NCBI RefSeq assembly: GCF_000820505.1
Contig: NZ_JWJD01000003.1
Coordinates: 402,411-466,410 of the forward strand
Direction: 5' to 3'
Source: Geoalkalibacter ferrihydriticus DSM 17813
GTDB taxonomy: Bacteria > Desulfobacterota > Desulfuromonadia > Desulfuromonadales > Geoalkalibacteraceae
DNA: 64,000 bases
Of this stretch, positions 46,101 through 62,815 are shown piece by piece (positions within the stretch are counted from its first letter, which is position 1; each line of letters starts with the position of its first letter). Under the pieces are notes generated by a model. The model saw nothing but the letters and a program-made list of their open reading frames with translations. It made no database searches and was not told the DNA's origin. Made by a program: the position numbers and the translations under genes.

Positions 46101-49100
46101 CAGCACCTCCTGGCTTTGGAACCAGGCCATTTCAAAGGCACGCTCAACAAAGTGCCGATCACAATATTCTTCCAGCAACGCCAGGGCGCCATCACGGGTG
46201 CCCGCGACCCCGGAGATGATCTGCACGGTCGCGGATTCGTCGGGTCCCAGGGTCAGGGTGCGGCGAATCGCCACAATGGGATCGAGCACCGGACCATCTG
46301 TGTTCGACAACCGCGAACGGTGATCACGGCTGTCGACGGCCACCGGGTTAGCCGCGGTTCGCCCGCGTCCGATAAATTTGGCGCGATCCGTCTCGTAAGA
46401 GGGCTCGTCGCTGAGCGCGCCCGGGGCGGCCAGCAGGTGAAACATCCAGGGTGGCTTCTCTCCCGGGGTGCGGCAGCGGCGCGTGCAGAGGATTGCCTGG
46501 CGCTCGGGCAGGATTTCGGTTTGTACGAACAGGTTGCTGAACGAGCGATGGGCCAGGTCGGCGTTGAGTGGAGCCAACACCACCTCGGCGTAACTGGTCA
46601 GCTCGATATGGCGGGTCCGGGACGACTGGTTGGTGAGCGTGACCCGGCGAATTTCCACATCGTCCTCGGGGGAGACACTGATTTCGGTGTGTGCATCAAT
46701 CCCTTGGTCGTGCCGCCGGTATTCAGCGCGCCCCTGGACGAAGATCGCTTCATAATGCTCGGCTTTGCGCCGGGTCGGTTGATAAGCGGTGGACCAATAG
46801 CGCCCCGAGTCGCAGTCGCGCAGGTAAATAAAGGATCCCCAACCATCGCAGGTGGCATCCTCGCGCCAGCGGGTGACGGCCAGGTCGCGCCAGCGGCTGT
46901 AGCCGCCGCCTGCATGGGTCGCCATGACGTGGTAGTTGCCGTTGGATAACAGATGAATTTCCGGAGCCGGCGTGTTCAGGTCGGTAAAGACGCGCATGAT
47001 CTCGCCGGTCTCTTCGACAGGGTGCGCGGCGGCGCTCACTTCGGCCGCGTGGGGGTACACCGTCGCCACCTTTTTCGGTACCCGTTCCTGCAGCAGCAAC
47101 TCGGTCGCCTTTAATATGGGGTCGGACATGAAGCGGCGCTGCATCGGCTGGTTAAGCAGGACATGGGCAAAGGCCAGCAGGCTCATCCCCTGATGATGGG
47201 CCATGAAGGAGCGCACAACGACGTGATTTTTACCCCGCGGCACCCGCGACGGGGTGTAATCGATTGCTTCGTAGAACCCATAGCCGCCCTGAAAATTCTG
47301 ACTCGCCAGCGTCTGCAAGTTGCGGCAGGCGGCCTGCGGCATCACCATCAGCGCCAGCGCGCTGGCATAGGGCGCGATGACCAGATCCTCGCCCAGCCCA
47401 CGCTTGAAACCGAGCCCCGGCACGCCAAAGGCGCGATATTGATAGATCTGGTGCATATCGGTGAGGTTATAGCACGACTCGGAAATACCCCAGGGCACGG
47501 CGCGTTGCCGGCCGTATTCGATTTGACGCGACACCGCGGCTTTGCAGGTCTGCTCCAGCAAGGTATTGGGGTAGCTCGGCATGATCAACTGGGGCATGAG
47601 GTACTCGAACATCGAGCCGCTCCAGGAAATCAGACTGACGTCGCCGCCATGACTGGTCAGCAGACGACCGAGGGAGAACCAATGCTTCTGGGGAACCTGC
47701 CCCTCGGCGATGAGCAGAAAACTGGCCAGGCGTGCTTCGGAGGCCAACAGATCGTAACAGGCCGCATCGCGGCGGCGTTCCCCGACGTCGTAACCGATGC
47801 AGAGCAGACCCCGCGAGCTATTGTAGAGAAAGTTAAATTCCATCGCCGCCAGTTCGCCGCAGCGCTGCATCAGATCGTCGATGGTTTTGAGCCGCTTGAT
47901 TGCGGCCAGCGACCGCGTACTCGTGCCGGCCGGGCCACCCGTCGCCAGTTCCGAGAGCTTCGGGATGCCAACAAACCGCTGCGACTCAGGCAGCAGTGAG
48001 CGCAGCTCATCGCGCAGGGCGTGGACTTGCCGATCGAAGGCCTGCGCCCAGGAGGTGAGTTCGCCATCAAGATCCAAATCCGCCGGCAACCAGGCCAGCA
48101 ACTCCCCGCCCAGGCGCTGAATTTCATCCAGCAAACGCTCGGCGTCGTCCAGGGTCTGGGGCGGCCCGTTCAGGGTGCCGGCGGAGAGTCTGTTCTGAAG
48201 CGCGTGGATCTTTTCCGCCAGGGCCGGGGCGGGCACTGCGGGCAGATGCTCGGCAAGCACCTCCAGGGTGTCCTGTAAGCCCGCGAAGGCCTGGTTGGAG
48301 AGCACCGGCTGGTCTTTCAACTCGGCCAATCCCGCCTGCAGGGTGAGCAGGCTGCCGACCAGATTGCCGCTGTCCACCGAAGAAATGTATTGCGGGCGCA
48401 ACGGCTCGAGGGTGCGTGTGTCGTACCAGTTGTAAAAATGGCCATGATAGCGTTCCATCTTTTCCATGGTCGCCAGGGTGTTTTCGGTCAAGCGCAGGCA
48501 TTCTCCGGCGCTGATAAAACCAAAATCACAGGCGCTCAGGTTGGCCAGCAGCGCCATGCCGATGTTGGTGGGCGAGGTTCGCCGGGCGACGCCTTGTGCA
48601 GGATATTCCTGGACATTGTCAGGGGGCAGCCAGTTGTCCTCGGGGCCGACGAAGTCCGCGAAATAGCGCCAGGTTCGCCGGGCCGAGGCGTGCAGGAAGG
48701 TCCGCTGCGCCGCGCTCAGGTCGGGCGCCGGCTCCACCAGCGGCCGGCTGAGCCACCATCCGACCAGAGGTGAGACCAGCCACAACAACAAAACCGGCGT
48801 CGCAAACAGCCATTGCACCGGCGGGAGAAGCCAGGCCAGCGCCATCCCCAGCAGCACCGCAAGCAACGGACCGATCCACATTTCAACAACAAAATCGGCC
48901 GGCGTGTGGCGCCTGTTGCGGCGGGCATAAGACGGCAGTTGCCAGAGCAGCAAGCCGCGCCGCGTGAATAGCATCCGCACCCCCGAACGCCCGATCGCAT
49001 CGAGGGCAATCAGCGCATCGTAGGGCAACAGGATCAAGCTCAGTAAAGCCAGCAGCAGCGGGCGTCCCGCGGATCTGCCGGTCAGATTCAGATGCAGCAG

Positions 49101-51743
49101 CCAGGAGCGGTCCCGGGGCTTGCGGAGCAATTCGATGCCGGCGGCAAGCAGGGTCGGCAAGCAGATCAGCGTTACCACCAGCAGGGACCAGAACCACGCC
49201 GGCCCCGGACCCACAAGCCAGCCCGCGATCAGCACCGCCAGCAGTGACGGCGGGACCAGGCTGCGGCGCAGGTTGTCGAACAGCTTCCACACCGACAGCG
49301 CACTTAAGGGGTTGGGTTGCCGCTGCCCTGGTGCGCCATGGGGCCCTCTCGGCCCTGGGACACGGGGCAGCAACCAGCCCGCCAACTGCCAGTCGCCGCG
49401 GATCCAGCGGTGGCGCCGGCTGGCCTCCATGGTGTAGCTGGCGGGATGTTCTTCAATCAGGTCGACATCGGTCACCAGTGCCGAGCGCGCATAGCCGCTT
49501 TCCAGCAGGTCGTGACTGAGAATGAGATTCTCTGGAAAACGCCCATCGACGGCCTGCCGAAAGGCGTCCACATCGTAGATGCCCTTGCCGATGAATGAGC
49601 CCTCGCCGAAAATATCCTGATAGACATCCGACACCTCGCGGGTATAGGGATCAATGCCCGCATCGCCCACGAACAGCTTGGTGAAGCGCGACTGGCCGGC
49701 ACTGGTCAGGCTGATCGAAGCGCGCGGTTGGAGGATTGCAAAGCCTTCGACAATGCGGCCTTTGCCGGCATCGTAATCCGGTCGATTAAGAGGATGGGCC
49801 AGGTTGCCGACCAGGGTGCGAGCCGCATCGCGCGGCAACTGGGTGTCGGTATCGAGGGTGATGACATACTGGATCGACCCCAGAATGGATGGGTCGCCGA
49901 CGATCTCCGAGAAGGCGTCGTGCGCCTCGCCCCGGAGGCGGGCATTGAACTGCTCCAGCTTGCCGCGCTTGCGCTCATAGCCCATCCACACCCGTTCCAC
50001 CGAATTCCACAGTCGGGGCCGATGGAACAGGTAGAAGATGTTTGGGCGATCCTCGCGGTAGGTTGCATTGAGCGCCTCAACCGCGCTGCGCGCGTAAGCA
50101 AGCAAAGCCGCGTCTTGCGGCAGCGTTTGCTCGGCAGCATCGTGAAAATCGGTCAACAAGGCAAAAAACAGATTGGCATCGCGATTGCCGAGATAGCGGA
50201 TTTCCAGGGCTTCAAGCAGATCGTCGACGTCCTGTGGTCTGGCCAGCAGAGTGGGAACAATCACCATGGTGCGATGGTTGTCGGGGATTCCTTTGGAAAA
50301 ATCGAGTCGTGGCAACACGCGCGGCGGCAGAACGAGGGTCGCCAGCAGATTCACCAGCGCAATGGCCAGAGCCGACGTTCCGATAACCAGCGGTGGTGCC
50401 AACAGCCAGACCCGCCAGTCCCCGGGATCGAATCCGACCGCGGCGAACACGCCTGCGGTCAACAGCAGGCTGAGCATCAGGATGGGACCGAGATACAGCA
50501 GGAGGCACCGCCGCCGGCCCGCCCGGCCGACCCGGCATTTCAGCGACAACCGGTAGCCGACGGCACGCTCCAGCAGCGGCCGTCCCTGATCGATGAGGTA
50601 GTAGCCGACATGCGCGGTGCGGTCGCTGCTGCTAGACTTCTGGGCAGCCGTCTGCGCCAGGCCGATGGCGGCGCGGGTCACCTCCAGCTCACTGCACGTA
50701 CTGTCCCGGGCCAGGTCTTCGATCACATGCCGGTAGCGATCCCGGGTGGCGAAGTCCTGGTCGGCGTGCAGCCCTGACGGATCCTCACCCAGGGCCTGTT
50801 CGACGACACTGAGCGATTCGACGAACTCCCGCCAATCCATGGCGTCGATGAAACGCAGGCTGCCGATGCTGTTGGCGATTGAGATCTGGTTGGCAGCGGC
50901 GGTGCGGCTGGCGGCCGCCGACAGCTGGGTAGCCGTCACGCCCTGTTCAAGCAGTTTCTGCTCAACCCAGGTTTGAACGAAGGCCATCGCGGGCCCCTGG
51001 GCCTGGAGCCGGGAGTAAAATTCCTCAACAAACGGCGCGGTCAGCGGCACATCGGCATTGGCAAACTCGGCCAGCAGTTGGATCAGCTGTTTCGGATCCC
51101 TCTCAGCTGCTGCGAGCATGCGGTCTGCCCAAGTGATGGCCGTATCGAGATCCTCCCGCCGATGGGCAATCCGCAGCCCGACACGGCTCAGATTTTCCAA
51201 CAACGCCAGTTGCAGCATGATCGGAAACGCCCACAATTCACCGATTTTTAAAGGCTCAATCTGTTGGTAAGAACTAAGGAGCTGGGTGGTGTTGTCTTGA
51301 TCGACGCGACCATCCATGTGCGAGATCAGCTGTAAAGCGATGTCGTAGATGCGCGGGAACCCGGCGGACGGATCATCCTTCAAACACGGCAACTGCCGGC
51401 TGTAGCCACGGGGCAGATGCCGACGCGCCAGCCCGATCTGTTGTTCGATGAGATAAAAATTGTCGAGTAGCCAGGCTTCTGCCGGTATGATCCGCTGCCC
51501 CGGTGTGGCGGCGATCACGACGTCATGCGCCGCCATCAGAACGCGGGCATTGTCGTCCAGCCGTGGCAGCAAACGATCCGCTCCCGGAGACGGATCCAGG
51601 CGATGCCGGCGCGCCAGCGTCTGACCATGACGTTTGAGTTGCTCAAGGCTGAACAGCTCCGATCGCAGCAACTCCGTTTCCCGGTCAGGCCGCAGCACAT
51701 GGTGGGCGCGGGACGTATATTTCGATATTTTCGTCGTTATCAC
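43128..51743 (-). CDS. Cyclic beta-1,2-glucan synthase (ChvB/NdvB type)
   Basis: A 2871-residue inner-membrane enzyme that builds, sizes and cyclises beta-1,2-glucans. The family-type order is visible: N-terminal cytoplasmic part with the protein-primed initiation region, membrane helices near 410-470, GT84 glycosyltransferase (about 490-800) with ITLDTDTQLPRD near 628 and RRHRWIRGDWQ near 778, more helices (820-1010), a glycoamylase-like domain (about 1300-1520, SWSGSMFEYLMPQL), two super-sandwich carbohydrate-binding regions (near 1590 and 2070) and a GH94 phosphorylase domain whose catalytic Asp lies in GCGDWNDGMNM near 2553. The length matches rhizobial enzymes. It starts with GTG after GAGGAG. 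The permease gene lies 52 bases upstream in the same direction. No transporter ChvA/NdvA is present. Confidence 0.93.
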   Translation of the reverse strand: MITTKISKYTSRAHHVLRPDRETELLRSELFSLEQLKRHGQTLARRHRLDPSPGADRLLPRLDDNARVLMAAHDVVIAATPGQRIIPAEAWLLDNFYLIEQQIGLARRHLPRGYSRQLPCLKDDPSAGFPRIYDIALQLISHMDGRVDQDNTTQLLSSYQQIEPLKIGELWAFPIMLQLALLENLSRVGLRIAHRREDLDTAITWADRMLAAAERDPKQLIQLLAEFANADVPLTAPFVEEFYSRLQAQGPAMAFVQTWVEQKLLEQGVTATQLSAAASRTAAANQISIANSIGSLRFIDAMDWREFVESLSVVEQALGEDPSGLHADQDFATRDRYRHVIEDLARDSTCSELEVTRAAIGLAQTAAQKSSSSDRTAHVGYYLIDQGRPLLERAVGYRLSLKCRVGRAGRRRCLLLYLGPILMLSLLLTAGVFAAVGFDPGDWRVWLLAPPLVIGTSALAIALVNLLATLVLPPRVLPRLDFSKGIPDNHRTMVIVPTLLARPQDVDDLLEALEIRYLGNRDANLFFALLTDFHDAAEQTLPQDAALLAYARSAVEALNATYREDRPNIFYLFHRPRLWNSVERVWMGYERKRGKLEQFNARLRGEAHDAFSEIVGDPSILGSIQYVITLDTDTQLPRDAARTLVGNLAHPLNRPDYDAGKGRIVEGFAILQPRASISLTSAGQSRFTKLFVGDAGIDPYTREVSDVYQDIFGEGSFIGKGIYDVDAFRQAVDGRFPENLILSHDLLESGYARSALVTDVDLIEEHPASYTMEASRRHRWIRGDWQLAGWLLPRVPGPRGPHGAPGQRQPNPLSALSVWKLFDNLRRSLVPPSLLAVLIAGWLVGPGPAWFWSLLVVTLICLPTLLAAGIELLRKPRDRSWLLHLNLTGRSAGRPLLLALLSLILLPYDALIALDAIGRSGVRMLFTRRGLLLWQLPSYARRNRRHTPADFVVEMWIGPLLAVLLGMALAWLLPPVQWLFATPVLLLWLVSPLVGWWLSRPLVEPAPDLSAAQRTFLHASARRTWRYFADFVGPEDNWLPPDNVQEYPAQGVARRTSPTNIGMALLANLSACDFGFISAGECLRLTENTLATMEKMERYHGHFYNWYDTRTLEPLRPQYISSVDSGNLVGSLLTLQAGLAELKDQPVLSNQAFAGLQDTLEVLAEHLPAVPAPALAEKIHALQNRLSAGTLNGPPQTLDDAERLLDEIQRLGGELLAWLPADLDLDGELTSWAQAFDRQVHALRDELRSLLPESQRFVGIPKLSELATGGPAGTSTRSLAAIKRLKTIDDLMQRCGELAAMEFNFLYNSSRGLLCIGYDVGERRRDAACYDLLASEARLASFLLIAEGQVPQKHWFSLGRLLTSHGGDVSLISWSGSMFEYLMPQLIMPSYPNTLLEQTCKAAVSRQIEYGRQRAVPWGISESCYNLTDMHQIYQYRAFGVPGLGFKRGLGEDLVIAPYASALALMVMPQAACRNLQTLASQNFQGGYGFYEAIDYTPSRVPRGKNHVVVRSFMAHHQGMSLLAFAHVLLNQPMQRRFMSDPILKATELLLQERVPKKVATVYPHAAEVSAAAHPVEETGEIMRVFTDLNTPAPEIHLLSNGNYHVMATHAGGGYSRWRDLAVTRWREDATCDGWGSFIYLRDCDSGRYWSTAYQPTRRKAEHYEAIFVQGRAEYRRHDQGIDAHTEISVSPEDDVEIRRVTLTNQSSRTRHIELTSYAEVVLAPLNADLAHRSFSNLFVQTEILPERQAILCTRRCRTPGEKPPWMFHLLAAPGALSDEPSYETDRAKFIGRGRTAANPVAVDSRDHRSRLSNTDGPVLDPIVAIRRTLTLGPDESATVQIISGVAGTRDGALALLEEYCDRHFVERAFEMAWFQSQEVLRHLGITEAEAQRYGRLATSVVFSNALRRAAPDVIARNQLGQSGLWRFAISGDLPIVLLTIGDLNRIELVKQVLHAHAYWRMKGLAADLVIVNEDFSGYRAELQDQIMGLINTGPEAQMLNQPGGVFVRRAEELSEDERVLLQTVARVVYKDSVATLVEQVERRVSPERVSDGLEPVQQPAAEPVQPLLPRERIFCNGLGGFTPDGREYVVTLEPGQNTPAPWANVIASPHIGTVVSESGSAYTWVDNAHEFRLSTWHNDPLSDSSGEALYIRDEETGAFWSPTPLPAPGRNGYVCRHGFGYSIFEHFEAGIVSELCTYVAMDAPVKFLVVKLRNQSRRPRSLSLTGYWELVLGEWRHANLMHIVTETDPHSGALLARNAYGRECGNRVVFAQVSEPERSVSGSRSELIGRNGSLSNPAAMGRKRLSNRTGAGLDPCAAVQTRIELAEGQEREIVFIFGAAENADQARHLIQQFGGTAGAWQALEAVWEHWSRTLGAVQVETPDPALDVLANGWLVYQTISCRLWARSGYYQSGGAYGFRDQLQDTMALLHTTPWLAREQLLRCASRQFPQGDVQHWWHPPGGQGVRTHFSDDYLWLPYATCRYVKTTGDTGILDEVVPFLEGRLLNPEEEAYYDQPQRSSETASLYEHCVRSINHGLRFGEHQLPLMGCGDWNDGMNMVGHEGKGESVWLAWFLYENLRLFADLARGRNDIAFADLCCEQAERLRGNIEAHAWDGAWYRRAWFDDGTPLGSSVNDECRIDSISQSWAVISQGGDPGRARQAMDALDKRLVRRDAQLIQLLTPPFDQSELEPGYIKGYVPGVRENGGQYTHAAIWATMAFALLGERERAWELYAMLNPVNHGHEPQEIARYKVEPYVMCADIYAVPPHTGRGGWTWYTGAAGWMYQLTVETLLGLHLEVDQLRIAPCIPVHWPAYKVRYRYRETMYHLTIRNVVEATTPGQRIILDGVVIEGETIPLVDDRRDHQIEVALG

Positions 51744-53228: not shown

Positions 53229-55643
53229 TCAGAGTGGAGGGGAATCTTTCGTATTTAACGGCGGATGGCGAGTTTTCGCGCCATCTTGATCCCCTCGATG
53301 CTTGGGAATGGAACATCCTGAGGGTTTCTCTCTGTGTGGCAGCAGCCAGGCTGCCAGAGCCGGAAGCAGGAACAGGGCGCCGAGCATGTTGACGATAAAG
53401 AGAAAAGTCAAAAGAATCCCCATATCCGCCTGGAATTTAAGCGGCGAAAAAATCCAGGTGGCGACCCCGATCGCCAGGGTGACGCCCGTAAAAGCCACGC
53501 CGTTGCCGGTGATCGCCAAGGTGTGCAGATAGGCATTTTCCAGGGAACGTCCTTCATCGAGATAACTGCGCAGGCGGCTGAAAATATAGATGCCGTAGTC
53601 GACCCCCACACCCACGCCGAGAGCAACCACGGGAAGGGTAGAAACCTTGAGGCCAATTTCCAGAAGGCTCATCAGGGCATAGGTAAGAATGGATACCAGC
53701 GCCAGGGGCAGGATGATACACAGAACGGCACGCCAGGAGCGAAACTGGACGAAGCACAACAGAATGACCGCTGAGAACACGCACAGCAAAATGGGATACT
53801 GCGCCGCGGCGACCAACTCGTTGGTGGCGGCCATCACCCCGATGTTGCCGGTGGCCAGACGATAGCTGACTTCGGGATGGGCCAGGGTTTCGCGGAAGTC
53901 CTTGACTTCGGAGACGATGCGCTCAATGGTGCCGGCTTTGTGATCTTCGGTAAACACCATGACCGGCATGACGCTGCAATTTGGATTGAGCAACCCGGTG
54001 GCGGTCGGCACGTAGCCGACCGCCTGCACCATGGTGGTCGGGTTGCGGGGCAACACCCGCCATTTGAGGCTGCCTTCGTTCCAGCCGGCGTTGATCACCT
54101 TGGCAACACCCGGCAGGCTCACCACCGACTGGACTCCTTCGACATTTTGCATGTGCCAGGCAAAGTAATCGATATTGGTCATAATGTCGTAATCCATGCA
54201 GCCTTCGGAGCGCGTTTCGGTGATAACCGACAGGGTATCGATACCGATGGCGAAATTTTCGGTGATCACTTCGCTGTCCTGATTGTAACGCGAGTCCTGT
54301 CGCAACTCTGGAACCCCGCTATGCATGTCGCCAATCTGAATATCGGACGCTTTCCACAGCCCCACGCCCAATAAAACGAGCGATACACCGATGATTGCCG
54401 CGGCGGGCTTACGGCGCGTTGCTTTGGAAAAGAAATGCCAGTAGGGCCGCAGATCTTGCGTCTGCTCCGCGACGCGTGAATGGTATCCCTCATCGAAATG
54501 GACATAGGACAGCAGCACCGGCAGCAGCAAAAGATTGGTCAGAATGATGACCGCCACCCCGAGACTGGCGGTCACGGCCATCTCCTGAATCACTTGCACG
54601 TCAATCAGGCTGATGGTCACAAAGCCGATGGTATCACTGACCAGAGCGATGGTTCCGGGAATGACCAACTGGCGAAAGCTGGTGCGCGCGGCGTCCATAG
54701 CGCTTGCGCCGGTGCGAAGCGCAGCGGTATTGGCGGTGATCATCTGCACGCCGTGGCTTACCGCGATGGCAAAGATGAGAAAGGGCACGAGCAGCCCCAT
54801 GGGATCGATTCCGTAACCGAGTAGCGGAAGCAGCCCGAGCTGCCAGATGACTGCAATCAGCGAACAGCCGATCGGCACCAGGGTCAATCGGAAGGAGCGG
54901 GTATAGAAAAAAACCAGGACCGAGGTGATGGCTAACGCCACAAAAAAGAACAGGACGATGCGCGTTGCACCCTCTGCTATGTCGCTGACCACCTTGGCAA
55001 AGCCGATGATGTGGACATCGACGGTGTCACTTTGGTAGGGGGCGCGAATCTGCTCCTCGAGCAGGCGCCCCACGGCAATATAATCAAGGCGCTCTCCGGT
55101 AATGGGGTCGACATCGAGAAGCTGTGCGCTGATGATCGCCCCGGAAAAATCGCCGGCCACCAGGCGTCCCAGAATGCCTGCTTTGAGTATGTTTTGGCGA
55201 ACCTGCTCAAGCCCTTCGGTTGTCGGTTGAAAATCGGCGGGAACGACGTTGCCGCCGGAAATACCGTCCTCCACCACCTCAGTGAAGCGCACGTTGGGTG
55301 TGAAAATGGAAGAGACCTGCGCGCGATCAACACCAGGGATGAAAAAAACGTCGGCGGTGGCCTGTTCAAGCGTTCCAAAGAATTCCGGAGTGAAGATGTC
55401 GCCGTCTTTGGCTATCAGGGCAATCAGAATCCGGTTGGCGCCGCCGAATTCCCGCTCATATTCGACAAAGGTCTGCATGTACTCGTGCTTGAGTGGCAGC
55501 AGCTTGGCGAACCCCGCATCAATGCGCAGGTGGGTCGCCGACCAGGCCATGAGCACGGTGAGAACGACAAAGAAGGCGATAATCCAGATACGCGCGCCAA
55601 AGATCAGATTTTCAAGGCGGCGAGTGATGGAACCTTTTTTCAT
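53229..55643 (-). CDS. RND/MMPL-superfamily permease
   Basis: An 804-residue inner-membrane exporter. One N-terminal helix (about 17-37) precedes a large periplasmic domain (to about 225); helices then cluster at 226-390, followed by a second periplasmic domain and five more helices (about 630-770), ending LFLLPALAAWLLPHREKP. This is the two-fold RND repeat in the shorter MMPL/HpnN-like form, without the usual AcrB-type funnel length. It closes a cluster with DUF1302, DUF1329 and YCF48-type proteins, so it probably moves a lipid or other hydrophobic compound towards the outer membrane; the cargo is unknown. Confidence 0.85.
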   Translation of the reverse strand: MKKGSITRRLENLIFGARIWIIAFFVVLTVLMAWSATHLRIDAGFAKLLPLKHEYMQTFVEYEREFGGANRILIALIAKDGDIFTPEFFGTLEQATADVFFIPGVDRAQVSSIFTPNVRFTEVVEDGISGGNVVPADFQPTTEGLEQVRQNILKAGILGRLVAGDFSGAIISAQLLDVDPITGERLDYIAVGRLLEEQIRAPYQSDTVDVHIIGFAKVVSDIAEGATRIVLFFFVALAITSVLVFFYTRSFRLTLVPIGCSLIAVIWQLGLLPLLGYGIDPMGLLVPFLIFAIAVSHGVQMITANTAALRTGASAMDAARTSFRQLVIPGTIALVSDTIGFVTISLIDVQVIQEMAVTASLGVAVIILTNLLLLPVLLSYVHFDEGYHSRVAEQTQDLRPYWHFFSKATRRKPAAAIIGVSLVLLGVGLWKASDIQIGDMHSGVPELRQDSRYNQDSEVITENFAIGIDTLSVITETRSEGCMDYDIMTNIDYFAWHMQNVEGVQSVVSLPGVAKVINAGWNEGSLKWRVLPRNPTTMVQAVGYVPTATGLLNPNCSVMPVMVFTEDHKAGTIERIVSEVKDFRETLAHPEVSYRLATGNIGVMAATNELVAAAQYPILLCVFSAVILLCFVQFRSWRAVLCIILPLALVSILTYALMSLLEIGLKVSTLPVVALGVGVGVDYGIYIFSRLRSYLDEGRSLENAYLHTLAITGNGVAFTGVTLAIGVATWIFSPLKFQADMGILLTFLFIVNMLGALFLLPALAAWLLPHREKPSGCSIPKHRGDQDGAKTRHPPLNTKDSPPL

Positions 55644-55695
55644 TCACGAAACTCCAGGAAACGAAAACGAATGCAAATGACCTGCATATTTTCAG

Positions 55696-56652
55696 TCAAT
55701 CGGCAGGCGTGGGGGACGCAGGCATTGCGATCCGGTCAACGCCGAATTCTCCGACACCAAACACGCTTCCGTCATCCATCTGCAGCAAAGCGGAGAGTCC
55801 CTGGCGATCGGGTCGCAGATGAAATGCGAAGCTGGCGCCGCCGTCATCACTGATGAGAAGCGCCCCGGCAAGGCCGGCAATCAGGATGCGGCCATCAGCA
55901 AGTATCAGCGCATTATTCAACGTGGCCTGGGTGCCGCTGTCGATCTCCTGCCAGGATTCTCCAGCATCATCGGAGCGGAACAGGTGGCCACGCAGGCCAA
56001 AGAGCAGCAGGCTTTTGCCGTTGAGAGGCAGAACGCCGAAAAAAGATCCCTCATAGGGCGGGTAGCGTTCGTCCCAGGTTTCTCCGCCGTCTCGCGAGCG
56101 ATAGAAATTGCCGGCCTCGGCGGCGATATAAAGAATGTCCCGGCCGACTGCCATTTTGTTCAGATGATAGTCGTGCTCGCTTATCCAGCGCGAATCCCAA
56201 GTTTCTCCACCATCCTCAGTCTCAAGGAAAGCGCCGTAGGCGCCGATGACAAAACCTCTTTGATCATCCGTGAACCAGACATCCAGCAGCGGACTTTCGG
56301 CCTCAGGATCAGCGTACATCAATTGCCAGGACTCACCGCCATCGACGGTCTTGAGGATGACCTGATCATGGCCGACCGCCCAACCGAGTTGTCGGTCTTG
56401 AAAATGCACCGCCGTCAAGGTGGCGCGGGTCGGCACTCTGACCTGATGCCAGCTTTGCCCTTTGTCTTCCGATCGCAGAATATGACCGCGTTCCCCGACG
56501 ACCACTGCCAGGCCCTCGACAGATTGGCCATCGAGCAGCAGCGAGCGCACCGCAAGGGGAGCCTGAATGGCGTATTGCGTATCACCGGCCGGAATTTTTA
56601 AGGGTGAAAGGGTCATGATCAGGAAGAATACGAGACAAGAAATCCGGCGCAT
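55696..56652 (-). CDS. YCF48/BNR-repeat periplasmic protein
   Basis: A 318-residue exported protein (signal MRRISCLVFFLIMTLSPLKIPAG) that folds as a beta-propeller. Six Asp-box (BNR) motifs are evident: SEDKGQSW, TVDGGESW, TEDGGETW, SRDGGETW, SDDAGESW and SDDGGASF. The YCF48 photosystem II assembly factor has the same layout, but in non-phototrophs these proteins occur beside RND permeases and DUF1302/1329 genes. ATG 56652 has GGAG six bases upstream; the frame is open seven codons earlier. It probably serves as the periplasmic partner of the permease. Confidence 0.85.
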   Translation of the reverse strand: MRRISCLVFFLIMTLSPLKIPAGDTQYAIQAPLAVRSLLLDGQSVEGLAVVVGERGHILRSEDKGQSWHQVRVPTRATLTAVHFQDRQLGWAVGHDQVILKTVDGGESWQLMYADPEAESPLLDVWFTDDQRGFVIGAYGAFLETEDGGETWDSRWISEHDYHLNKMAVGRDILYIAAEAGNFYRSRDGGETWDERYPPYEGSFFGVLPLNGKSLLLFGLRGHLFRSDDAGESWQEIDSGTQATLNNALILADGRILIAGLAGALLISDDGGASFAFHLRPDRQGLSALLQMDDGSVFGVGEFGVDRIAMPASPTPAD

Positions 56653-56681
56653 ACAGGCTCCGAAAGTACACACATGAAAAC

Positions 56682-56738
56682 GGCCGGATCAGGGACCCGG
56701 CCATTTTCATGGTCGTTTTCATCCGGGCAAGCCGGATG
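56682..56738. other. Two intercistronic hairpins
   Basis: Between the DUF1329 and YCF48 genes are GGCCGG (56682-56687) with CCGGCC (56697-56702), and CATCCGG (56720-56726) with CCGGATG (56732-56738). On the minus strand they follow the DUF1329 stop directly and could protect the upstream mRNA or dampen read-through. Confidence 0.5.
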
Positions 56739-56742
56739 GTCG

Positions 56743-58104
56743 TTAGCGGGTTCCGCCCCGGCGTAAGGCGCCGGGAGCAAAGTCAGACAGGCTGGGACGA
56801 ACATCGAAGTTGAACATGGTGCTCTCGTTGTTGAGCCCGACGGCCAGGTAGCGCCCGGATTGCAGGTCGGTGTGGACCTCAAGGGTCGTCCACAAGGTCG
56901 GTACCTCATAATAATTAATGACATGCCCCTCGGAGACGCGCCAGAGCTGATCACGGTTGTCGTAGATATCCACGGCCAGAATCTGCCAGCTGTCTTCATC
57001 GACATAAAAGGTGCGGCGTTTGTACAGATGCCGCGCCCCGTCCTTCAGGGTCGCGTCCACCACCCAGACCCGATGCAGTTCGTAGCGCAGGTGCTCGGGA
57101 TTGACGTGCAATGGGGTCAGAATGTCGGAATACTTCAGGCGATTGCTATGAAGTTTATAGGAGTTGTAGGGCACATAAATTTCTTTTTTGCCGACCAGCT
57201 CCCAGTTGTAGCGATCGGTCGCCCCGTTGAACATATCGAACTGGTCGTTGGTACGAATGCCGTCCGAAGCCGTGCCCGGATTGTCGTAAGCCACATTGGG
57301 GGCACGTCTGACGCGGCGCTGGCCGGGATTGTACACCCAGGCGGAGCGCGGTTCTCTGACCTGGTCGAGGGTTTCATGCACCAGCAGGATTTCTCCGGCC
57401 AGGCGGGCCGGCGCAGTCACTTCCTGTTTGAAAAACAAAATCCGGTTGCCCAGTTCCTCCTCGGTGATGCCTTCTTTGGCGTAGAGCAGAAAATACTCTT
57501 CCTTGAACTGCACAAGAGTGTAGTTGCCGCCGCGGGTTACAGCGGCCTGGGCAATGCGCCGCTGGGCAGCTTCACCGCGAAAACGCAGCAGGTGGTTCCA
57601 GATGACTTCAATCCCCGATTTGGGAATGGGGAAGGGGATGCCAACGACCGCACCGGCGACGCCATCGCCATCGTTGACCAGACGCGCGGTGGCGGCCACT
57701 TCGCGCGTCGCCTCATAGATGCGCTGGGGCACTGCGGCGCTGCGGCGGGTTGGATAGACGTTCATGTGGAAACTGGGATAGGTTTCCAGCATGGCTTTGT
57801 GGCCGACGGTCAGCTTGTCGGCGTGTTGTCCCATGTTCTCCGCAGTAATGGTGAAGAGGATGGCATCATCGGCAAAAGGATCGGGGTGATGGTCGCCCTT
57901 CTGGTACCCCGCGGGCGGCGCGGTCAGGCCGCCGGTCCAGGGAGGAATGGTTCCGTCTGCGTTACCGGCCTTCTCGGCACCAAGAGGGGTCAGATCATTG
58001 CCAAGTCGCGCGATTTCCTCAGGGAGCAACTGTGCCGAAGCAAAACTAGCAACCCCAAGCACCAGAAAAAGGGCTCCCAGTAAACGAAAGGTTTGTTTGA
58101 ACAT
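56743..58104 (-). CDS. DUF1329-family envelope protein
   Basis: A 453-residue exported protein with a signal peptide (FRLLGALFLVLGVASFASA). Family features include LGNDLTPLGAEKAGNADGTI near the mature N-terminus, WNHLLRFRG, and a LolB-like or MucB-like lipid-binding beta-sheet in the centre (AWVYNPGQRRVRRAPNVAYD; LYKRRTFYVDEDSWQILAVD). DUF1329 proteins are thought to bind hydrophobic cargo in the periplasm. ATG 58104 has GGGGGAA upstream. It is 16 bases from the DUF1302 gene, so the two are co-transcribed and probably work together. Confidence 0.88.
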   Translation of the reverse strand: MFKQTFRLLGALFLVLGVASFASAQLLPEEIARLGNDLTPLGAEKAGNADGTIPPWTGGLTAPPAGYQKGDHHPDPFADDAILFTITAENMGQHADKLTVGHKAMLETYPSFHMNVYPTRRSAAVPQRIYEATREVAATARLVNDGDGVAGAVVGIPFPIPKSGIEVIWNHLLRFRGEAAQRRIAQAAVTRGGNYTLVQFKEEYFLLYAKEGITEEELGNRILFFKQEVTAPARLAGEILLVHETLDQVREPRSAWVYNPGQRRVRRAPNVAYDNPGTASDGIRTNDQFDMFNGATDRYNWELVGKKEIYVPYNSYKLHSNRLKYSDILTPLHVNPEHLRYELHRVWVVDATLKDGARHLYKRRTFYVDEDSWQILAVDIYDNRDQLWRVSEGHVINYYEVPTLWTTLEVHTDLQSGRYLAVGLNNESTMFNFDVRPSLSDFAPGALRRGGTR

Positions 58105-58120
58105 GAGGTTCCCCCTATTT

Positions 58121-59935
58121 CTAGAATGAATACTTGATGTTGGCGGCGATGATGTCACGATCATTGATCAGATTGTAGCGTCCGGCACCGAAGAAATTGG
58201 TGTAGCTCAAATCGGCACCCCAGCGCAGCTGGTAATCCGCACCGATGCCGAAGGTGATGGCCTTGCGGCCCTCAACAAAGTTGCCGCCTGGGCCGGGCGT
58301 GGTGCCCTGCACGTCGTGCTGCCAGGCAATGCGCGGCGAGAGGGTGACGGCGCCGATGGCGTTGTTGTAATCGAGACGTCCCACCATGCGATATCCCCAA
58401 GACGTAGAGTCGGCAAAACGGCCGGCGGGTTCGACCTCATCAAAGTGAAAGCCCTTCAGCGCCTCATTGCCGCTGATCGGTGTGCCGGGCGCTTCCAGGC
58501 GCAGTTCAGATTTTTTAGGCATATTGCGCACATAGGTCATACCGACTTCGCCAATCAGGACAAATTGATTGGCACCGAACGTCGGCCCAAACAGTTGAGT
58601 GGCTGTGGATTGAACCTGAATCACATCGCGACGGATGTAACCGGGGATTTCAGTTTCAAAAGGAATCAGCCCCAACTGACCAAACTCGGCCAACGGCGCA
58701 ACAGGTGTGTTGCCGGGGCTCAGGTTGTCGATGGCACCCAATGCGGCAAAAAGCAACTCGATATCATCGATCTGCAAAGGCACGCCTCTGCGATAGGAGA
58801 TTTCACCCTGTAGGGCAATGCCTGATGTGGGAAGCAGAGTATTGAAGCTTGCGCCATAGAGCTTGATGTTTTCCGGGTAGCTGGTGAAATACTGCGCCGT
58901 TTCTGCATAGGTGCGCCCCTCGGGATCGACTCCGGCGGCAGCAGCGGCGGTACCGGTTGTCGCATTGAGGACCGGAAGGCGGCTATGATAGTTGATGTAA
59001 TAAAAACCAAATTCCGTGTCATTCAGAGCAGGAGCATAAATCCGCATGGCCAGGCCGAATTGCCCGGAATCAGAGGCTTTACGCGTTGGACCCCGGGTCA
59101 CGACCTGGCCGCTGGATGGGTCGGCGGTATCCGGGACATCCCCGAAGCCGAGCATGACCCGATGACCTCCATCACCCACGAAGTCGGCGGTACTCCAGTA
59201 GGAGCCCGGCGGATCGATTTCCGTCTCCCTCCAGTCGTAGAGGTAGAAACCTTCAAAGGTGGTGTTCATCGTCGGGCTGATGGATCCCCACACCATACCT
59301 TCGGGAACCAGGGCTTCCCTGACCTCTGACCCCGGAAGTCGGATAGCGTTGACGTTGATCGGGTTGATGACATTGATGCCGTTCTGAATGAAGGTGCTTT
59401 CCCCCCAATTCACCACCTGCTCGCCGACACGAATCTGTGCGGGCATGTCTCCCACATCAAAAGAGCCCCACACAAAAGCATCGAGCAGGCGAAGATCCTT
59501 ACCCACCAGATCTTTGGCTTCGCTGCTCAGAGGGGTTTTTTCCCTGCTTCCCTCCATGTTTTCAAAATCATAGAAGCCGGTACCGCGCAGGAAAATGCCC
59601 ATATCGCGACGATAATTGAGCGCCAGTTCCGAAGTCGCCTTGACGACATTGCTGACCAGTCCCTTTCTGTAGTTGAGATTGCCGTCGTCATAATTGACCG
59701 ATCGGGCCGTTCCGCCATTGGCCGTGCCGATCAAACGCTGGTCACGGTCCTGAACGCGCCACATCAGGCCATAGGACAGGGTTGTATCCAGGCTGCCGGT
59801 CCAGTCTCCCTGGCCGAATTCAAAGGAATGCGCAGGCCCAGACGCCATCAGAAAGAGAGCCAAAGCCCCTGCGGTCAGCAGTTTGAATAACCTTCGGAAG
59901 CATTTTTGTTTTTCAGGAATTTGTCGTTGATTCAT
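58121..59935 (-). CDS. DUF1302-family outer-membrane beta-barrel protein
   Basis: A 604-residue protein with signal peptide (LLTAGALALFLMASGPAHS) and mature start FEFGQGDWTGSLDTTLSYG, the DUF1302 hallmark. Many alternating aromatic and Gly residues, and a last strand ending YNLINDRDIIAANIKYSF, fit an outer-membrane barrel with a C-terminal Phe for BAM recognition. It would be the outer-membrane channel or surface anchor of the cluster. GAGGGTGG lies before ATG 59935. Upstream is a truncated lipase-like gene. Confidence 0.88.
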   Translation of the reverse strand: MNQRQIPEKQKCFRRLFKLLTAGALALFLMASGPAHSFEFGQGDWTGSLDTTLSYGLMWRVQDRDQRLIGTANGGTARSVNYDDGNLNYRKGLVSNVVKATSELALNYRRDMGIFLRGTGFYDFENMEGSREKTPLSSEAKDLVGKDLRLLDAFVWGSFDVGDMPAQIRVGEQVVNWGESTFIQNGINVINPINVNAIRLPGSEVREALVPEGMVWGSISPTMNTTFEGFYLYDWRETEIDPPGSYWSTADFVGDGGHRVMLGFGDVPDTADPSSGQVVTRGPTRKASDSGQFGLAMRIYAPALNDTEFGFYYINYHSRLPVLNATTGTAAAAAGVDPEGRTYAETAQYFTSYPENIKLYGASFNTLLPTSGIALQGEISYRRGVPLQIDDIELLFAALGAIDNLSPGNTPVAPLAEFGQLGLIPFETEIPGYIRRDVIQVQSTATQLFGPTFGANQFVLIGEVGMTYVRNMPKKSELRLEAPGTPISGNEALKGFHFDEVEPAGRFADSTSWGYRMVGRLDYNNAIGAVTLSPRIAWQHDVQGTTPGPGGNFVEGRKAITFGIGADYQLRWGADLSYTNFFGAGRYNLINDRDIIAANIKYSF

Positions 59936-59989: not shown

Positions 59990-60278
59990 TTACTCAGCCA
60001 CCGCTTCATTGCTGATGAAAACAGTTGCACCATCGGTCGCGACAAAGGTCGCCATGGCTTCATGCATGACGGTTGTCGCTGCCGCAGAGGGTGACGTCCA
60101 CGCTGTTTGTAAAAAGAAGGTTGGTAGGGAAAGGCAGTATTCCCTCGGTGAGATCAAAATGTGCGGTAAATCCGCTTCGATCGATATTGAGTTCGGCATC
60201 AATATCCTTGTTGTCGCTACCGCAGGCCGGCAGTAGCAAATATCCCGTAAGGGCCAACAGCCAGAATAACCTGCGCAT
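59990..60278 (-). pseudogene. Collapsed VolA/Pla-1-like lipase gene (N- and C-terminal ends only)
   Basis: The start encodes a lipoprotein signal (LLALTGYLLLPACGS) followed by AHFDLTEGILPFPTNLLFTN, the opening of Pla-1/cef/VolA-type surface lipases (usual text: FDP..G.LPFPNDLLF...DGTLNIP). After SVD the text becomes VTLCGSDNRHA and stops. In another frame the tail reads VMHEAMATFVATDGATVFIS and ends at a stop at 59990, which resembles the end of a large secreted esterase. The gene seems to have lost its middle and its frame. This relies on remembered consensus. It stands 54 bases before DUF1302, where such lipase genes commonly sit. Confidence 0.55.
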
Positions 60279-60907
60279 CGTCTCTTTCTCCTGAATAGTA
60301 ATTCATGAAGAACGTCTACTGCCGGAACCTGAGCCGCCAACCAATGGTTTCTGATACCTTGGAGAAAGCGATCATGTCAACATATTAAAAAACCTGATTA
60401 TCACTGATCTTCCGCCGGGCACAGTTTGACATATTGTGACAAGGTGCGCCTTGTTGGTCTGAGTTATCCCGCAAGCATATCCTGGTACGGTGCGCCCGCA
60501 AGCGCATTCAGCGGCACCAGTGAGTTACGCTTGTCCACGCCTTTGCTTGGACCCGGAAAGCGGCTTAGGGCGGCCGGTGCCGGTGTCCGACTTGCATGGG
60601 GGCAAACTTCTGATAACATGCCTTGCATAGCCGTTTTACGGAAACGAACGAGGAAATGCACGCCTGCCACCATGCTTCCTCTGCGCGAAGAATCGTCGAA
60701 TATGTTTTTCACCTACGATTTAAAGGGCACACCACGGGAAATCCCCCCCATCGTCTCAGTTATTTTATGCATTCGACGGCGTGCGCATCATCCGTGTGAA
60801 AGGAGGTGAGAAAAAAAGGCGGCACCAGAGTCCGGGGGGATATGCATGCGCTCGGCCGAGCCAGTGGCCGGAGCCTGCCTACACATGTGAAAGGGAGGAT
60901 AAGAAGA
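60279..60907. other. Long intergenic region, no gene recognised
   Basis: This gap separates the minus-strand envelope cluster from the plus-strand peroxidase-like gene and should contain both promoters. Visible features: ACAAGG/CCTTGT inverted repeat (60439-60454), a 12-bp palindrome GCTCGGCCGAGC (60850-60861), and two similar ribosome-site-like stretches, GTGAAAGGAGGTGAGAA near 60796 and GTGAAAGGGAGGATAAGAA near 60886. The first has no start codon at proper spacing. Open frames here show no family features. Confidence 0.6.
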
Positions 60908-62815
60908 ATGCAAGGACCAATAGCTTTTCTCTTGCTGTTCATGGCGACGCTGGGCTTTGCGATGCCCGGTACGGCCTTGGCTTTCAGCGGCGGAATTTCC
61001 GGCTATTCCGGCAACCCGGCGACCAATGGCGGGGCAACCTGCACCCTGTGCCACAGCGGAGGTATAGTCCCATCCGTATCCCTCAGCGGACCGAATTCGG
61101 TGGCCCCAGGCTCGACCCACACCTACACCCTCACCATCAGCGGCGGCCAGGAGGTCGCCGGCGGCCTTGATGTCTCCGTTACGGGAGGAATGCTGACGGT
61201 CTCCGCAGCCGGCACCAAGCTGCTGAACAACGAAATCACGCACACGGCCTCCAAGCCCGCCGCCAACGGCGAGGTGACCTTTAGTTTCGATTGGACCGCA
61301 CCGGTCAGCGGCTCCGTAACCATGTACGCCGCCGGCAATTCGGTGGACGGGCAAAGCGGGGCCCAGGGCGACAACTCTGCCGCGACGCAACTCAGCATCG
61401 CCGTCGAGACGATGGGCAATCAGCCGCCGACGGCCGACCCCGCTGGACCCTACAGCGGTGCGGTGGGCGAAACCATTACCTTCGACGGGTCGGGGTCCTC
61501 GGACGCCGACGGCTTCATCGTCGCGTACGACTGGGATTTTGGTGATGGCAACAGCGGCACGGGCGTTAATCCCATTCACGCATTCACCATGGCCGGCAAC
61601 TACACTGTCAGCCTCACCGTAACCGACGATATGGGGGCGACGGACACGGCCACCACCTCTGCCATGATCAACGGAGGCGTATCGCAGCCGCTGAACACGA
61701 TGGAGAAACTGGGTAAGGCGTTGTTTTTCGACACCAACCTGTCGACCCCGAAAGGCCAGTCCTGTGCTGTCTGCCACGGGCCTGAAGCCGGCTGGACCGG
61801 GCCGTTGAGCGAGATCAACGCGCACGGCGCGGTCTACGAGGGCGCCAAGCACAACCGCTTCGGTAACCGCAAGCCGCCGAGTTCGGCCTACGCCACGCCC
61901 AGTCCCGTCTTCCACATGACCTCTCCGGGCGAGTTCATGGGCGGCAATTTCTGGGACGGTCGCGCAACCGGCGAAATCCTCGGCAACCCGGCTGCCGACC
62001 AGGCGCAGGGGCCGTTCCTGAATCCGCTGGAGCAGGCCAACCCCAACATGCAGGTCATCTGCCAGCGCATCAAACAGTCACGGTTCGCCGAGGAGTTGGT
62101 GGGAGAGAGCTACGCCGCTCTGTTCGCGCAGGTCTTCGGCCCCGGCTCTTTTGATTGCCGTCCAAGAAACCTGCAGGCAACCTACGACTATGTCGGCCTA
62201 GCCATTGCCGCCTACGAGGGCTCCAGCGAAGTCAACGCGTACAGCGCAAAGTTCGATGCCTGGCAAGCCGGCATGGTCGAACTGACCGAGCAGGAAATGA
62301 TGGGTTGGCAGTTGTTTAATGGCAAGGCGCTGTGTTCCGTCTGCCACCTGACCACCCCGGGGCCGAACGGCGAGCCCCCGCTTTTCACCGATTTCCGCTA
62401 CCACAACCTGGGTGTCCCGAAAAATCCCGAGAACCCCTTCTACACCCAGCATAAAAAATTCAACCCCGATGGCGAGAACTGGATTGATCCGGGCCTCGCA
62501 GGATTCCTTGAGACCCGGCCCGAGTACCAGGAATTCGCTGAGCAGAATTACGGCAAGCACAGGACGCCCACCCTGCGCAACGCAGACCTGCGTCCCGATG
62601 AGACTTTCGTGAAGGCCTTCATGCACAACGGGGTCTTCAAGAGTCTTGAGGAGGTGGTGGCGTTCTACAATTCGCGCGACACGGGCATGTGGCCGCCGCC
62701 CGAAGTCGACCAGAACCTCTCGCCGCTGCTGGGAGATCTGGGGCTGAGCGCACAAGAGCAGGCAGCCCTCGTCGCGTTTATGAAAACGCTCAATGACGGC
62801 TTCATGTCTGAGTAA
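60908..62815 (+). CDS. Three-haem cytochrome-c-peroxidase-like protein with PKD domain
   Basis: A 635-residue exported protein. Signal peptide (AFLLLFMATLGFAMPGTALA); a small N-terminal haem domain with Cys45-His49 (CTLCH) followed by a beta-rich segment; a PKD domain at about 172-250 (SGSGSSDADGFIVAYDWDFGDG without interruption is split by loops); then a di-haem peroxidase/MauG-like domain with Cys286-His290 (CAVCH) and Cys476-His480 (CSVCH). The peroxidase part reduces H2O2 or oxidises a partner using electrons from cytochromes. ATG 60908 gives the clean signal; GTG 60806 would add 34 unlikely residues. A 19-bp-stem terminator follows. Confidence 0.88.
   Translation: MQGPIAFLLLFMATLGFAMPGTALAFSGGISGYSGNPATNGGATCTLCHSGGIVPSVSLSGPNSVAPGSTHTYTLTISGGQEVAGGLDVSVTGGMLTVSAAGTKLLNNEITHTASKPAANGEVTFSFDWTAPVSGSVTMYAAGNSVDGQSGAQGDNSAATQLSIAVETMGNQPPTADPAGPYSGAVGETITFDGSGSSDADGFIVAYDWDFGDGNSGTGVNPIHAFTMAGNYTVSLTVTDDMGATDTATTSAMINGGVSQPLNTMEKLGKALFFDTNLSTPKGQSCAVCHGPEAGWTGPLSEINAHGAVYEGAKHNRFGNRKPPSSAYATPSPVFHMTSPGEFMGGNFWDGRATGEILGNPAADQAQGPFLNPLEQANPNMQVICQRIKQSRFAEELVGESYAALFAQVFGPGSFDCRPRNLQATYDYVGLAIAAYEGSSEVNAYSAKFDAWQAGMVELTEQEMMGWQLFNGKALCSVCHLTTPGPNGEPPLFTDFRYHNLGVPKNPENPFYTQHKKFNPDGENWIDPGLAGFLETRPEYQEFAEQNYGKHRTPTLRNADLRPDETFVKAFMHNGVFKSLEEVVAFYNSRDTGMWPPPEVDQNLSPLLGDLGLSAQEQAALVAFMKTLNDGFMSE

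Follow-up and report, generated by a model that had tools for sequence, protein, structure and literature searches.

What do four adjacent envelope genes of Geoalkalibacter ferrihydriticus DSM 17813 carry, and in which direction? They lie on the minus strand of a 64,000-nucleotide stretch of contig NZ_JWJD01000003.1 (positions 402,411 to 466,410), called the window below, and encode a DUF1302 outer-membrane barrel, a DUF1329 protein, a YCF48-type propeller and an RND permease. An earlier note on this DNA, made from the sequence alone, presented them as a candidate undescribed export system. The novelty does not hold: the set is an AmeABCD-type cassette, already described in 2018 (PMC6394551) and then in PMC6449761, PMC10866462 and PMC13101534. 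The cassette appears to belong to a fatty-acid branch and probably, though by no means certainly, imports long-chain fatty acids and similar substrates. We infer its direction, cargo, energetics and stoichiometry from gene content, gene order, predicted folds, neighbours, a gene remnant and a hairpin. Three pieces are new: a lipase link with a local scar, an arrangement in which the cassette occupies the slot of FadL, and a conserved intra-operon hairpin. None of the three was found in the literature searched.

All four genes are present as the earlier note had them, with clear Pfam matches. The DUF1302 barrel (604 residues, 58121-59935) matches PF06980 with 603 bits as its sole Pfam match, has an N-terminus that looks by eye like a signal peptide, and is encoded by the only DUF1302 gene that a search of the genome returns. 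It is followed by the DUF1329 protein (453 residues, 56743-58104; PF07044, 530 bits) and the YCF48-type propeller (55696-56652; PF14870, 96 bits), both predicted to be periplasmic, and by an MMPL-type RND inner-membrane permease of 804 residues (53229-55643; PF03176, 88.6 bits). The YCF48 start is taken as an ATG; the list of open reading frames (ORFs) places a GTG start at 56673. Two of the three reported spacings, 16 and 90 bases, are right, and the third is not 43 but 52 bases, counted from the stop of YCF48 to the first ATG. The window genes have the AmeABCD-type order on one strand: DUF1302, DUF1329, YCF48 (COG4447), RND. For the permease, the best NCBIfam match is the HAE3 family TIGR00921 with 186 bits, under the cut-off of 351.9, and PF03176 is above its cut-off. 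Neither the membrane-fusion protein nor the TolC-type outer-membrane factor of an HAE1 tripartite pump has a Pfam match in the four cassette proteins.

Across phyla the order of the four genes shows strong conservation. Of 40 genomes, made up of the window's own and 39 relatives, 10 carry strong DUF1302 matches (E < 1e-40); these number 12, and all 12 have DUF1329, YCF48 and RND genes beside them. Two of the 12 are diverged copies on contig 12 of genome G016, with another gene order and weak DUF1329 matches (about 40-47 bits). A second scan was anchored on DUF1329; its 80 named loci are the best 80 of at least 592, and they are biased towards cassettes since cassette members went into the query. 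They derive from Desulfobacterota, Gamma-, Alpha- and Betaproteobacteria, Verrucomicrobiota, Nitrospirota and Acidobacteriota, and one is labelled Bacteroidota. Where there is room upstream, DUF1302 directly precedes DUF1329 in 61 of 66 named loci; where there is room downstream, YCF48 follows in 64 of 67 and RND in 63 of 67. All four genes stand in order on one strand in 53 of the 58 named loci with room on both sides, and the possibility that they rarely co-occur, raised in the earlier note, falls away. The exceptions among the 58 are a locus with all four genes and a doubled DUF1329 (L110), a full cassette with an extra pair (L043), one locus without a detected RND (L101) and two solitary DUF1329 genes (L105, L116). 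A broken YCF48 in the congener G001, suspected from ORF picking, was dismissed after a six-frame search found YCF48.

Such a cassette could also serve the envelope itself, shifting the cell's own lipids between membranes, in which case its catabolic neighbours would be incidental. Many Alteromonadales and related loci, which have the cassette in one fixed position between genes for proteins of about 865 and 1612 residues and not in catabolic operons, suit this housekeeping role, as does the LolA-type carrier fold described below. We nevertheless consider it improbable: presence is patchy (any DUF1302 match in 15 of the 40 genomes), DUF1329 occurs on plasmids (41 records), and catabolic neighbours appear in distant taxa. 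On one plasmid the DUF1302-DUF1329 pair lies next to a fatty acid-CoA ligase; two plasmids list the pair only, in a source gene table that is incomplete.

The neighbours of the window's own branch point to fatty acids. Directly upstream of DUF1302, on the same minus strand, lies what a deletion has left of a lipoprotein lipase gene of the Lipase_bact_N family (PF12262; 59993-60299). The earlier note had missed this remnant, which is recognised by similarity to the intact lipase of locus L023. Its N-terminal piece (about 60087-60299) is 65% identical over 71 residues (blastx E 9e-29, tblastn E 5e-19), and its C-terminal piece (about 59993-60088) 58-59% over 32-36 residues (E 2e-7 and 2e-4). Order and strand of the two pieces are right, their frames differ, and about 575 codons between them are lost. 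The window thus lacks a complete PF12262 domain with an alpha/beta-hydrolase, and its genome has no PF12262 match; the intact relatives of the remnant do match PF12262. A 16-base direct repeat of 94% identity (60072-60087 and 60210-60225) touches the deletion junction. No clear mechanism of deletion via direct repeats was found at the scar.

The intact lipase stands at the same place, directly before DUF1302, in three relatives; the search of the 40 genomes found no PF12262 gene besides these three. A sample of 395 genomes of the phylum adds two further PF12262 genes, each directly followed by DUF1302 and DUF1329. All five intact PF12262 genes found in the phylum therefore directly precede DUF1302. 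The arrangement reaches beyond the phylum, as 9 of the 80 named loci have a lipase directly before DUF1302 (L093 and 8 of the 60 that have 5 kb upstream), among them a Nitrospirota genome and Gammaproteobacteria; most of the 80 lack it.

A second link is with beta-oxidation. Within the order Desulfuromonadales, an acyl-CoA ligase (FadD) and an 800-residue FadB-type enzyme stand together in one locus, and 21 loci were compared: 17 stretches around FadB genes of this class among the matches listed, and four cassette loci. Left out were three frames of similar length and another score class (G020, G024, G035) and the 700-residue FadB stretches of G000 and G001 (L134, L135), which have neither FadL nor cassette beside them. 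FadL stands beside FadB and FadD in six of the 21 loci (L119, L121, L123, L125, L129, L132), and the cassette does so in four, co-directional in L020, L022 and L024 and divergent in L023. In none of the 21 do the two occur together. The remaining 11 have neither; four of these end at a contig end (L127, L128, L130, L131) and seven have at least 6 kb upstream. The three co-directional loci read DUF1302-DUF1329-YCF48-RND-FadD-FadB on one strand, and the order cassette-FadD-FadB is repeated in four named loci (L037, L040, L041, L055). A FadB tree, poorly resolved, mixes FadL-type with cassette-type loci, and L129 and L024 share a clade (97/97); therefore exchange between FadL and the cassette may have occurred more than once. 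Two long branches of this tree, L117 and L130, are possibly not orthologous.

FadL (PF03349) has no match at E 0.001 in the window's genome. Of the four cassette-type genomes, G025 (85% complete), G026 and G032 have no FadL match either, and the same is true of the congener G001. The DUF1302 protein itself has no PF03349 match. The window's genome does carry a FadD-like gene on contig 4 (41%) and, on contig 2, a trifunctional FadB, the cassette being on contig 3. As a separate observation, the FadL that stands beside FadD-FadB in L121 of genome G027 is split over two frames, and the same genome carries a lipase-linked cassette elsewhere.

The phylogeny of DUF1329 places the window in this company. 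In a tree of 100 DUF1329 proteins it falls in a clade of seven rows (SH-aLRT 96) made up of the window, a congener, three lipase-linked loci, one FadD-linked locus and one row from G021 that is cut by a contig start and almost the same as the lipase-linked locus of G027. The congener and the G021 row show no link to lipase or FadD. The next larger group (93) takes in the five FadD-FadB loci as well. Plasmid copies with aromatic links lie in other parts of the tree, one of them on a very long branch. The cassettes L025 (G027) and L032 (G021) are 99% identical over 7.2 kb in hosts from different families of the order, which would reflect recent transfer or bin contamination.

Is the operon expressed as a unit? 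The earlier note proposed one transcript from the tight spacing, a view weakened by a terminator-like hairpin of 18 pairs (56673-56711, minus strand) in the 90-base gap between DUF1329 and YCF48, with a folding z of -7.8 (scored as L027). When a GC-rich stem of at least 10 pairs is sought within 80 bases after the stop codon, one is found after DUF1329 in 60 of 88 loci, 43 of the 60 having at least four T near the end, against 4 of 88 for a coding control inside DUF1329. Applied after DUF1302, the test finds 4 of 79 (coding control 11), and after YCF48 10 of 81 (control 9); in both places the 80-base spans fall mostly in the next gene. Folding energies agree, with z < -3 after DUF1329 in 45 of 88 loci versus 4 of 264 coding segments. 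These counts omit L032 (near-identical to L025), L028 and L029 and include both of the close copies L101 and L106; the loci are related by descent, so that 60 of 88 does not amount to 60 independent events. Terminator-like sites across this region as a whole are no commoner than in shuffles (10 vs 10.5), and the case for the hairpin therefore rests on its recurrence. Across phyla its position is held and its sequences differ widely.

This suggests that the hairpin parts the operon into a channel-plus-carrier half and a propeller-plus-pump half. The split point is where Pseudomonas putida has two separate loci and where the two plasmids mentioned above list the DUF1302-DUF1329 pair alone. It also suggests that more channel and carrier is made than pump. 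The periplasmic binding proteins of importers, such as that encoded by malE, are likewise in excess. Spectra from the benzene degrader ORM2a, which are semi-quantitative, agree: 106 for the porin and 158 for DUF1329 versus 65 for YCF48 and 60 for MMPL (PMC13101534).

Folds were predicted for two of the four parts. The AlphaFold2 model of DUF1302 (predicted local distance difference test, pLDDT, 93) is a barrel nearest to channels of the Occ/OprD/BenF type (Z 23.5, root-mean-square deviation (rmsd) 3.4, 325 residues aligned); FadL is not among the 50 fold matches listed, which excludes nothing. The DUF1329 model (pLDDT 93.2) matches LolA3 (9tp6; Z 22.6, rmsd 2.4, 237 aligned) and the DUF1329 crystal structure 4z48 (Z 20.3, rmsd 3.2, 235 aligned). 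Residues about 137-428 of the mature model have the LolA-type fold, and the N-terminal 130 or so lie outside the match. The nearest solved chains to the permease are MmpL4, HpnN, MmpL5 and MmpL3. Known MMPL permeases carry an Asp in both transmembrane helices TM4 and TM10. In the window permease the TM10 Asp-Tyr is kept (residue 682) and TM4 has Ser-His (residues 296-297), the helices being numbered from a simple hydropathy scan. Among 83 permease rows, in which the window counts twice (as itself and as L027), the TM10 Asp is present in 83 and the TM4 Ser-His in 81, the two most distant having Ser-Asp. The proton path may therefore differ in the cassette permease, possibly through an altered proton relay.

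A route can be proposed from these parts. A surface lipase, intact in relatives and lost in the window, would free fatty acids, which the DUF1302 barrel would let in through the outer membrane. The LolA-fold DUF1329 would then shield them and ferry them over the periplasm to YCF48 and the RND permease, which, driven by the proton gradient, may accept them from the carrier and move them into the inner membrane or through it. FadD would subsequently convert them to acyl-CoA for beta-oxidation, and with the hairpin after DUF1329 the cell would make less pump than channel and carrier. The full combination, a proton-driven inward RND importer that stands in FadL's place, is coupled to a lipase and has a conserved intra-operon terminator setting carrier above pump, is put forward tentatively, as somewhat less likely than not. 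The passage of long-chain fatty acids and hydrocarbons over the periplasm is poorly understood, and FadL covers the outer membrane only. If the cassette imports, it would supply a complete envelope route, with an RND permease as an importer in Gram-negative envelopes.

Several observations weigh against this import reading. Known MMPL and RND permeases mostly export, and the solved relatives of the window permease bear exporter names. The alginate exporter AlgE is also a close fold match to DUF1302 (Z about 20-22), and hairpins occur after RND too (29 of 76 loci, control 9). The window's lipase is broken, no fad gene was found near its cassette, and the congeners G002 and G003 lack both cassette and FadL, yet retain FadB and FadD genes. 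Over the 40 genomes FadL is not rarer where the cassette occurs, with no match above the cut-off in 5 of 10 cassette genomes versus 11 of 30 others, and a genome-wide displacement of FadL is not supported. Other branches lie in aromatic operons.

Tetrapartite efflux, proposed for the Castellaniella defragrans cassette that Puentes-Cala and Harder named AmeABCD in 2018 (PMC6394551), would have the RND permease take hydrophobic compounds from the inner membrane, with DUF1329 and YCF48 as adaptors and DUF1302 as the exit, and would protect catabolic pathways. With acetate, limonene above 5 mM harms the deletion mutant, which also retains slightly more Nile Red under carbonyl cyanide m-chlorophenylhydrazone (CCCP) (PMC6394551); both effects suit efflux. 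The four genes also belong to the AphS, AphR and AphT regulons of aromatic metabolism, reported in 2019 by authors who read them as coping with toxic aromatics (PMC6449761). However, the mutant grows poorly on non-functionalised monoterpenes and fails chiefly when the hydrocarbon is the sole carbon source (PMC6394551), a defect that lost uptake explains equally well. On acetate with limonene up to 5 mM it grows like the wild type, and its real-time Nile Red efflux is almost identical (PMC6394551), results that suit lost uptake. Efflux must further do without a TolC-type channel and a membrane-fusion protein, as Pfam shows neither in the four, and with a lipase and a FadL slot as neighbours. 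The lipase, the Fad genes, the FadL slot and the Tween 20 phenotype of P. putida given below speak for import, and export is less likely than import for the window's branch; we consider the tetrapartite pump rather unlikely there. Of the export system of the earlier note, the envelope-spanning set with its conserved synteny is supported; as to direction, the branch neighbours (lipase, FadD, FadB, FadL slot) point rather to import.

Divergent from the cassette in the window is a gene for a MauG-type di-haem cytochrome c peroxidase (60806-62815) that carries choice-of-anchor V and PKD domains. On the minus strand at 43128-51743, a 2871-residue ORF, a putative cyclic beta-glucan synthase, adjoins an AI-2E family transporter. 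Conserved flanks within the genus were considered and rejected: the AI-2E gene matches only weakly in G001-G003, and the best matches there to the cytochrome gene (56-59%) are no closer in kind than a second copy in the window's own genome (54%).

Several known systems resemble the proposed route in part. VolA, presumably a PF12262 protein encoded in an operon with fadL, is a parallel for the lipase. In Vibrio cholerae, this extracellular lipase supplies FadL transporters, that is, an outer-membrane fatty-acid channel (PMC12208996). The cassette differs in that DUF1302 is not PF03349 and is accompanied by a carrier and a pump. AmeABCD has the same four families in the same order as the window, a likeness drawn from families and gene order with AmeA-D taken from their description; its authors place AmeD in HAE3 and report conserved cassettes (PMC6394551). 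The two differ in their setting, a monoterpene island and an export reading there, and the lipase and Fad link in the window's branch. In P. putida, PP_0765 and PP_0766 are essential for the use of Tween 20 and PP_2018 and PP_2019 are correlated with them, as reported in 2024; DUF1302, DUF1329, a periplasmic protein and an efflux-type transporter are all required for growth on Tween 20 (PMC10866462). Predicted contacts there link DUF1329 with DUF1302, DUF1329 with the transporter (weak) and the periplasmic protein with the transporter (strong) (PMC10866462). P. putida keeps these genes at two separate loci, whereas in the window they form a single locus, its halves parted by a hairpin. The 'Nanopod' cluster of ORM2a, reported in 2026, likewise joins porin, DUF1329, YCF48 and MMPL in one highly expressed cluster whose direction its authors left open; it differs by additional universal-stress and hypothetical proteins and by its benzene context (PMC13101534). 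Loss of a DUF1329 gene impairs growth of Delftia on phenanthrene, according to work cited in PMC13101534; a term search of one Delftia paper (PMC3958437) did not show that gene. If the cassette imports, the AmeABCD, P. putida, phenanthrene and benzene observations would describe one system with different cargoes.

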